64,000 nucleotides of DNA from Bacteroides sp. (GTDB lineage: Bacteria; Bacteroidota; Bacteroidia; Bacteroidales; Bacteroidaceae). Made by a program: the position numbers and the translations under genes. The DNA lies in the NCBI GenBank assembly GCA_022648295.1, contig JALCME010000019.1, positions 1 to 64,000 of the forward strand, written 5' to 3'. Below, one piece after another: positions 30,469 to 33,740 of the stretch (positions are counted from its first letter, which is position 1; each line of letters begins with the position of its first letter). Under the pieces are notes generated by a model. That model saw only the letters and a program-made list of their open reading frames with translations, did no database searches and was not told where the DNA came from.

Positions 30469-32016
30469 TTAATTTTCTGAAAGATCTACCGCATAATTGG
30501 CTCGTTTGCCCGAAGGATAGATTCCGGTAATGAAGAGAACTTGCTCCGGAGTATTGACAGCTTTTCTCATGATAGTCCGAAGTTCATCGGCTGTATTCAC
30601 ATGTATGCCGTTAGCTTTCAATATAATAAATCCTTTACGAATACCCGCATCTTTCATCTTACCGTCAGAAACACCTGTTACTTCTAATCCGTAACCTAAA
30701 TTCAGTTGCTTCTTCAGTTCATTAGGAACAGGACGGAAAGCAGCACCTAGAATATCCATTCCGGCATTCTTAACCACCTTAGTCGTTCCCTGAGCATTTT
30801 TCAAAACAACTTCTACTGTTTTATCCTTCTTATCACGAATCAATTTGATCTTTACTTTATCACCCGGGCGTTTCTTTGCCAAAACCCCTTGCAAATCGGC
30901 CATCTTATGGACCGGAATATCATCAATGCCTATAATAACATCATTTTCCTTGATATCTGCACTAGCAGCAGAACCTCCATCAATAATCTTGGAGACTAGT
31001 ACACCATCGGCAGATTTAATACCCAGTTTATCAAGCATATCTTTCAATGTTGTTCCCTTTTCATCCATTTGATCATCTATCATACGTTCCCCAAGAGACA
31101 TTCCTTGAATACCTAACATAGCCCGTTGAACCGTACCATATTGTCTCAAATCGGAAATAACTTTCTTTACTTCATTGGAAGGAATAGCAAAGCCATATCC
31201 CGCATATGCACCTGTAGGCGAACTTAACACCGCATTGATGCCAATAAGTTCTCCACGAGTATTGACCAATGCGCCTCCACTATTTCCAGCATTAATAGCA
31301 GCATCGGTCTGGATGAAAGATTCAATTCCTCCATCCCCATAAATGCCCAAACTACGCGCTTTGGCACTAACGATGCCAGCTGTGACAGTAGAAGTAAGAT
31401 TAAACGGATTACCTACCGCTAACACCCATTCTCCAACTTTCATAGCATCGGAATCACCAAATGGTATAGTGGGAAAATCATCTCCCTCTATTTTAACTAA
31501 AGCCAAATCGGAACTGGCATCAGCTCCTATGACACGACCTTTAAATTCACGATTGTCATTCAGCTTAACAGTAATTTCATCGGCACCGTCAATAACATGG
31601 TTATTAGTTACGATATATCCATCTTTAGAAATAATAACTCCGGAACCAAAGCCTACCCGTTCGGGAGTCTGGACCTGACGTCTCTGTGCTCCTCCTCTCT
31701 GACCAAAGATCTGACCAAAGAAATCGGAAAAAGGATCTTGTACTTCAACTTCACGCACCTTAGATGCCTGAGTCGACTTGATATGTACCACAGCTTCAAC
31801 CGAACTCTTTGCAGCTGGGGTCAAGTCCACCGGCTGTGCAGTAATACCATTGTAAGAAGCCAACCTTGCATTACTATCAGGATTCTGCTCAAACAATTCA
31901 CTAAAGGCAGCCGGTCTCTCTTTCTGTAACACCTTATAGGTAGTAAAACCTGCCACTCCCGAACTAAGGAGTACTATAAACACGACTCCAAGGATGTTTT
32001 TCGTTCTCTGTTTCAT
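30469..32016 (-). CDS. DegQ/HtrA-type periplasmic serine protease (trypsin + PDZ)
   Basis: GFGSGVIISKDGYIVTNNHVIDGADEITVKL (His), ASSDLALVKIEG (Asp), IQTDAAINAGNSGGALVN (Ser), PDZ regions. Confidence 0.97.
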   Translation of the reverse strand: MKQRTKNILGVVFIVLLSSGVAGFTTYKVLQKERPAAFSELFEQNPDSNARLASYNGITAQPVDLTPAAKSSVEAVVHIKSTQASKVREVEVQDPFSDFFGQIFGQRGGAQRRQVQTPERVGFGSGVIISKDGYIVTNNHVIDGADEITVKLNDNREFKGRVIGADASSDLALVKIEGDDFPTIPFGDSDAMKVGEWVLAVGNPFNLTSTVTAGIVSAKARSLGIYGDGGIESFIQTDAAINAGNSGGALVNTRGELIGINAVLSSPTGAYAGYGFAIPSNEVKKVISDLRQYGTVQRAMLGIQGMSLGERMIDDQMDEKGTTLKDMLDKLGIKSADGVLVSKIIDGGSAASADIKENDVIIGIDDIPVHKMADLQGVLAKKRPGDKVKIKLIRDKKDKTVEVVLKNAQGTTKVVKNAGMDILGAAFRPVPNELKKQLNLGYGLEVTGVSDGKMKDAGIRKGFIILKANGIHVNTADELRTIMRKAVNTPEQVLFITGIYPSGKRANYAVDLSEN

Positions 32017-32250: not shown

Positions 32251-32382
32251 AACCCAGGAGAACAAATGTCACAGCCCAGGGCTACAAGAGTAACAGCCCT
32301 GGGACATCACGCAAATTGCCCTGGGCTACAACAGCAATAGCCCCGGGGTTATTGAAACAAACCTCGGGGCTATAAATATAGG
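32251..32382. repeat. Six-unit tandem array, exact 22-bp period, of CCCNGGG-centred palindromic units
   Basis: Gapless units: aacccaggagaacaaatgtcac / agcccagggctacaagagtaac / agccctgggacatcacgcaaat / tgccctgggctacaacagcaat / agccccggggttattgaaacaa / acctcggggctataaatatagg. Confidence 0.85.
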
Positions 32383-32405: not shown

Positions 32406-33740
32406 TCAATAGTTCAAATATTCTATATCCATGTGGTAATCCCACTTCGGGAAATAAAGGTTACCTCCCTCCCATTCCACTTCGCCACGTTGGAAATCAA
32501 CCGTCTCGCTACGTGGATATTTTTTTTGCGGAACCAAAGACCTGCCAAAATCATTATTCACCACCATACGCCAGGAATCTATGCCTCCAAGGAAGAAGTA
32601 CTCCTCATCGGCATTACGGGCAAAGGTAGGGATGCCAAACGATTGATCAGCCGGTACCCACCCGATACCCTGGAAATAGATTTCCGCCCAATCGTGGAGA
32701 TTCCATGCATTAGGATGCATCATAAATCCACTTTGGAAATGGGCGGGAATGCCACTAATACGGCAAAGTGTGATAAAGAGAAGGCTGACCTGCCCACAAT
32801 CTCCATGATGATTGTCCAACACATATTCCGGTATATTTTCAATAGTGGAATATTCACGCGCGGAAGCCCAGGGAAAATGATCGTTCACCCAACGGAAAAT
32901 ACGTTTGGCCTTCAAATAAGGATTTGTCTCACCGGCTGTCAATCTGGCAGCAAGTTGACGCAACCTGGAAGAAAAGATAATATGCTTTTCGCGCTCGGCT
33001 GTATATTCCTTATAAAGAGCAGCAGTCGTATCATAGGGCTGAATATCTTCCGCTTTTAAGTTATGCCATTCCGCATTGGAGGTGTATTCAAAGGTTTCGG
33101 AAAACACTGCCGGTTCATTATGGACCGCCCGCTTCTCCATATAAAGAGTACTGTGACAACAACTCTTAGGTGCAAGCGTATACTTCGGCTCGCTTGCGGA
33201 AATAAATTTCACATCTTGCTGACGCGCTACATCGGTACGTGGATAAGGAAGCCAGCAACGAATTATTTTTCCGGCCGGTACCTCGTTTGTATCTACCGTA
33301 AGTGTATAGGTTATCCGCATCCGTTTGGGAACCACAATATTCTTTCCCCCTTTTTTAACAGCCGCGATAACTTCCGGTAAGTTCTCCATATTCACCTTCT
33401 CACTACCACTTAAAGCAGCACCTTCTTTTGCCACCTTTATATTATAACAGGTGGAATCCACCCGGAATAAGTTAGGACCAGCATTGCGGAAATAGCGTTT
33501 TTCTCCGTCAATCACCATGCACTCCAACGCCTTTGATTTTTCCCACTCACGCATTTGGTCGTCAGTCACATCCGGTATATACTTTCGAATATAATCTTTA
33601 ACCTGAGATTCCGTCATGCAAAAGTCGGTTAATAACCGCTGATGCAAGTCACTTTCCCAGCTATATGGCTCTACTTTAGGCTTCGTACCACAAGACGATA
33701 TGATGAAAAGAGAGATAAACAGGTACAGTAATTTCTTCAT
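32406..33740 (-). CDS. Transglutaminase-domain lipoprotein
   Basis: Lipobox ISSCGTKP; LDNHHGDCGQVSLLFITLCRISGIPAHFQSGFM...NLHDWAEIYFQGIGWVPADQSFG. Confidence 0.9.
   Translation of the reverse strand: MKKLLYLFISLFIISSCGTKPKVEPYSWESDLHQRLLTDFCMTESQVKDYIRKYIPDVTDDQMREWEKSKALECMVIDGEKRYFRNAGPNLFRVDSTCYNIKVAKEGAALSGSEKVNMENLPEVIAAVKKGGKNIVVPKRMRITYTLTVDTNEVPAGKIIRCWLPYPRTDVARQQDVKFISASEPKYTLAPKSCCHSTLYMEKRAVHNEPAVFSETFEYTSNAEWHNLKAEDIQPYDTTAALYKEYTAEREKHIIFSSRLRQLAARLTAGETNPYLKAKRIFRWVNDHFPWASAREYSTIENIPEYVLDNHHGDCGQVSLLFITLCRISGIPAHFQSGFMMHPNAWNLHDWAEIYFQGIGWVPADQSFGIPTFARNADEEYFFLGGIDSWRMVVNNDFGRSLVPQKKYPRSETVDFQRGEVEWEGGNLYFPKWDYHMDIEYLNY

Follow-up and report, generated by a model that had tools for sequence, protein, structure and literature searches.

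What kind of element lies between the transglutaminase and htrA genes of this Bacteroides genome, and what holds its repeats at 22 bp? The window (the whole stretch of 64,000 nucleotides that was analysed) contains at 32251-32382 an intergenic array that a sequence-only reading had described as six gapless 22-bp units. This description was confirmed, with unit starts at 32251, 32273, 32295, 32317, 32339, and 32361, an exact period, and no indels; TRF likewise detected the array. The features of the region are as follows.

30469..32016, minus strand: gene for an HtrA/DegP-like serine protease with PDZ domains, on the downstream side of the array
32251..32272, no strand: unit 1, AACCCAGGAGAACAAATGTCAC, degenerate core
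32273..32294, no strand: unit 2, AGCCCAGGGCTACAAGAGTAAC
32295..32316, no strand: unit 3, AGCCCTGGGACATCACGCAAAT; pairing partner, unit 2
32317..32338, no strand: unit 4, TGCCCTGGGCTACAACAGCAAT; pairing partner, unit 1 or 2
32339..32360, no strand: unit 5, AGCCCCGGGGTTATTGAAACAA; left arm of the 12-bp stem
32361..32382, no strand: unit 6, ACCTCGGGGCTATAAATATAGG; right arm of the 12-bp stem
32406..33740, minus strand: transglutaminase-like gene (PF01841), 3' end toward the array

Both flanking genes are on the minus strand: the near end of the array is approximately 24 bp from the transglutaminase stop codon (32406), and the far end lies approximately 235 bp upstream of the start codon of htrA (32016). 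In unit order, the cores are CCCAGGag, CCCAGGG, CCCTGGG, CCCTGGG, CCCCGGGG, and CCtCGGGG, those of units 1 and 6 being imperfect. Competing hairpins between units had been proposed, and reading of the sequence supported them: the stems 32275-32283/32295-32303 and 32273-32281/32319-32327 are both perfect 9-mers. The alternative pairings proposed for 32339-32347 stood in part, as this segment has one mismatch with 32319-32327, whereas the arm at 32361-32372 is a better partner (12 bp with one G-U). One weak terminator-like site (32287-32269) was found in the array. A search of Rfam with the array returned nothing above the gathering threshold; the best candidates all scored below it, among them Acido-Lenti-1 with 19.2 of 37 bits. 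The view that the repeat belongs to no named family was upheld; nor was this class of arrays described in the open-access literature searched, which is not proof of novelty. A CRISPR array, with its long, near-identical direct repeats and unrelated spacers, was considered and rejected, only approximately 7-11 bp being conserved here and neighbouring units pairing in inverse.

The pattern CCCNGGG-N15-CCCNGGG (up to one mismatch) occurred five times in the window, all within the array, against 0.02 expected, and 24 times per strand in the whole genome with none in the reversed control. When the gap was left free (CCCAGGGN{2,32}CCCNGGG), 14 of 14 genome-wide matches had a gap of 15, that is, a period of 22. 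Together with the empty reversed control, this result excluded a chance origin of the array. The CCCwGGG family was found at seven further loci in the source genome, with the period of 22 at every one (arrays on contigs 5, 10, 16, 17 (two), 21, and 26); contigs 2 and 15 carry isolated one-mismatch CCCNGGG matches that are not arrays.

To examine the period independently of any motif, each sequence was compared with itself at every lag, and intergenic arrays were counted. The sample of 1.66 Mb covered the source genome, 11 further species of the same genus, and 10 more genera within the family, taken as 20-kb stretches with one genome per species and genes called as longest ORFs. In the pooled sample, 56 intergenic arrays were counted at lag 22 against a mean of 1.4 for the other lags (Poisson, 5e-68), followed by 10 arrays at lag 23 and 9 at lag 14. 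In 464 kb of the source genome and 400 kb of genome G157, the intergenic counts peaked at lag 22 and its double, and the lag-22 peak was also present in 10 more species of the genus and in the 10 other genera. The expectation that such arrays occur in other Bacteroidales was thus borne out throughout the sampled Bacteroidaceae; no lag-22 peak appeared in sequence sampled from the order's other families or from elsewhere in the phylum. Intergenic repeats of period 14 were also in secondary excess in G157 (stretches L182-L201). A separate scan of contigs for triple cores, which fixes the period at 22 by design and is therefore unusable as evidence of period outside the family, gave matches in Planctomycetota, Streptomyces, Lujinxingia, and others. 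Long near-identical 22-bp CCCwGGG arrays were observed, in this period-fixed search, in Prevotellaceae, Rhodopirellula, Lujinxingia, and Reinekea (L045, L072, L060, L065, L115, and L114).

Comparison of consensus units placed 57 analysed arrays in approximately 33-37 sequence clusters; clustering by shared 10-mers had chained arrays spuriously. Two families recur in several species, one being TCCAACGCGTTGGA with TATATA and the other AACAGAYSRTCTGTT. The general feature is the 22-bp period, and the sequence varies by locus and species, and the idea of a single CCCNGGG family was upheld as far as that family is real and recurs in the genome but not as a description of the whole class. By simple proportion, we estimate that the source genome holds approximately 120 arrays, which are short, fast-changing, and mostly dyad-symmetric.

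The symmetry of the arrays and the pairing among their units were then evaluated statistically. Against a column-permutation null, 67% of the arrays had dyad symmetry at p ≤ 0.05, and one third were without significance. The arrays folded better than controls in which the columns were shuffled among units (n = 42, Wilcoxon 8e-8), although only 14 of the 42 beat the shuffle individually; the overall result indicates complementarity between specific units. Of the cells in eight orthologous arrays, 94% pair, and changes on both sides were found in 20 cells compared with 8.4 in shuffles and none with a slid partner. Unit complementarity exceeds what shared periodicity explains, and compensatory changes are present. 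Sense and antisense strands folded equally well (21 arrays, p = 0.79), so that no strand-biased selection on RNA was seen by this comparison. Neither was there a clear preference for gene ends after control for length: the gene-arrangement classes agreed with the length-matched null, and 29% of the arrays lie in divergent intergenic regions. Specialisation of the class as 3'-UTR structures, which the sequence-only reading had suggested, was accordingly not upheld. Equal folding of both strands and the lack of confinement to gene ends point to the DNA level rather than to a function in RNA.

Orthologous sites differed among relatives, and orthologous arrays differed by whole units. The nearest relative found, G096, lacks an array between htrA and the transglutaminase gene; in other relatives this site is likewise without one, or is occupied by another array with a period of 22 or 21 bp or by a large inverted repeat of unrelated sequence. 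In one close group, orthologous intergenic regions measured 285, 307, 351, and 373, which differ by steps of 22, 44, and 66. T-runs follow several of the orthologous arrays. The 21-bp arrays were seen in three related species (L147, L150, and L151) and are of the AAAGACTTAAGTCTTT type; the unrelated large inverted repeats, which are near-perfect (CACCACAGAGGACACAGAGG..., GAATGAAGAATGAAGAAT..., GGAGTTATCGGGAGTTAG...), take the place of a 22-bp array in G090, G087, and G113 (L141, L145, and L148).

Inverted segments were observed in a single species, G278, which belongs to another genus of the same family. One array family in this genome gave 69 forward and 66 reverse matches, corresponding on our reading to about 35 loci, copy numbers that are lower bounds because the repeat breaks assemblies; it had no match in 10 other genomes tested. 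The array forms the centre of a dispersed repeat of approximately 620 bp. Among 11 distinct copies with their flanks oriented alike, both the inner and the outer inter-core segments occurred in both orientations, giving the configurations A C A', A' C' A, A' C A, and A C' A', which are visible in the alignment too. Flipping could also be the work of a site-specific recombinase that recognises the palindromic cores, but segments of 22 bp would be too short to loop easily. Many assembly contigs of G278 (contigs 14, 41, 54, 66, 71, 91, and 108) end inside the 22-bp array element.

Based on these observations, we propose that the array in the window represents a class of quasi-palindromic minisatellites that occupy intergenic sites across Bacteroidaceae and are remodelled in whole units by template switching of replication between inverted units; our confidence in this proposal is evenly balanced. 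The changes would be events in the DNA itself, taking place when replication moves from one inverted unit to another as its template. Such switching would copy one arm onto another, yielding compensatory changes, and would invert the stretch between them; whole units could be gained or lost by it as well. We propose it because its described outcomes match the patterns here. In published descriptions of quasipalindrome correction and short-range template switching, the arms of an inverted repeat become homogenised and the sequence that separates them is inverted (PMC8604942), and hairpins are both created and maintained (PMC8794818). Both hallmarks, arm homogenisation and inversion of the inter-arm segment, were found in the arrays as patterns among the sequences compared. 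To our knowledge, template switching has been described at single inverted repeats and not at arrays with a fixed 22-bp step, and by itself it does not explain that step. A binding protein that tolerates diverse sequences and has a 22-bp footprint is a possible alternative and counts as a point against template switching. Further points against it are the third of the arrays without significant dyad symmetry, the fact that most arrays taken singly did not beat the column shuffle, and the restriction of the observed inversion to G278. Two turns of an A-form helix span 22 bp and two B-form turns approximately 21 bp; the agreement of the A-form length with the step is suggestive only. A dedicated, sequence-tolerant Bacteroidaceae machinery, either an enzyme or a nucleoprotein assembly, which would measure 22 bp and build, trim, and flip intergenic palindromic units at about 100 or more arrays per genome, appears doubtful to us.

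Other explanations give the arrays a function of their own or a passive role. A dimeric or filament-forming protein might bind palindromes presented on one face of the DNA, with selection holding the 22-bp phase. The strict period despite diverged spacers, the dyad symmetry, and the occurrence of arrays in divergent intergenic regions all agree with this idea, and the spacing is indeed close to two helical turns, as had been claimed. However, 33-37 unrelated cores would need a sequence-blind protein or many proteins, each 22-bp unit departs from two turns of B-DNA by approximately 34 degrees, and the units covary beyond their shared periodic profile, which independent sites do not need. The earlier notion of phased independent protein sites thus keeps its spacing but is weakened by this covariation, and we consider arrays of binding sites unlikely. 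We regard as quite unlikely that the arrays are RNA-level elements, namely 3'-UTR hairpins whose competing arms serve as bidirectional terminators or mRNA stabilisers. Their strong folding and compensatory pairs, the terminator-like site within the array, its position directly past the transglutaminase stop, and the T-runs after orthologous arrays would suit such elements, and intrinsic terminators resemble the arrays in having hairpins near gene ends with T-runs after some. The arrays are nevertheless repeated, strand-symmetric units present in all intergenic classes. They are equally stable in sense and antisense, show no gene-end bias after length control, and lie in divergent regions in 29% of cases; the array of the window is lacking in the nearest relative, and a hairpin could function without a period of exactly 22 nt. 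With template switching as the preferred reading, effects on RNA are regarded as secondary: the array in the window is probably transcribed, past the transglutaminase stop, and where transcribed, such arrays would form stable hairpins and may affect transcript ends.

Mobility was considered as a further explanation, in which the arrays would belong to MITE-like elements moved by a transposase in trans, with the internal minisatellite as passive cargo. Dispersed non-coding repeats of approximately 620-780 bp with an array inside are present in G278 and the source genome, and BrickBuilt, the closest known relative of these arrays, shares their layout. BrickBuilt elements of Porphyromonas gingivalis are MITE minisatellites with imperfect 23-nt tandem units between leader and tail segments; they form one sequence family without BLASTn matches outside the species, and terminal inverted repeats have been reported for them (PMC4596501). 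Both are intergenic and dispersed, occur in the same bacterial order, and have imperfect tandem units, variable copy number, and stem-loop potential. The arrays examined here differ in their 22-bp unit, in comprising many unrelated families that share one period across a bacterial family, in the inversion of inter-core segments, and in the terminal inverted repeats, which a comparison of the element ends did not reveal (the best match there was 7 bp, E 0.61). Leader- and tail-like repeats flank the array in G278 and in part of the copies of the source genome, whereas the copy in the window has no repeated flanks. No clear target-site duplication was found at the elements. The failure to find terminal inverted repeats or a clear target-site duplication, the unrepeated flanks of the window copy, and the single period shared by unrelated sequence families make a MITE-like origin very unlikely in our view, although the dispersed repeats probably spread some of the arrays. 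One composite non-coding repeat of approximately 750 bp (L017:2664-3408, L022:2733-3441, and L018 reversed; 83% identity) contains three 22-bp array families in series. It had 18 full or partial matches in the source genome and one short weak match in each of 2 of 30 relatives, and it had no match in plasmid and phage collections.

REP and BIME sequences associated with RAYT are likewise short, palindromic, intergenic, and often clustered; the arrays differ in their exact 22-bp tandem period and many unrelated cores. The suggested link to a RAYT transposase was rejected for the source genome, where the Y1_Tnp domain (PF01797) gave 0 matches in an assembly that is 92% complete.

A constant spacing combined with free sequence across a bacterial family points to an unnamed physical or enzymatic ruler. 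The arrays are numerous and fast-changing, lie in the regulatory space of common gut bacteria, and may alter gene ends and promoters; they could serve as strain markers and provide many natural replicates for the study of template switching.

Two other loci of the source genome were also observed. On contig 17, one array (L020:2927-3058) lies, as judged by eye, between two minus-strand phage- or mobile-element-like genes (primase/helicase-like protein). On contig 10, a very long composite (L018:2740-3183 and L180:4098-4536) runs from CCAACGCGTTGG-type cores, in 22-bp register, into at least 12 CCC-type units.
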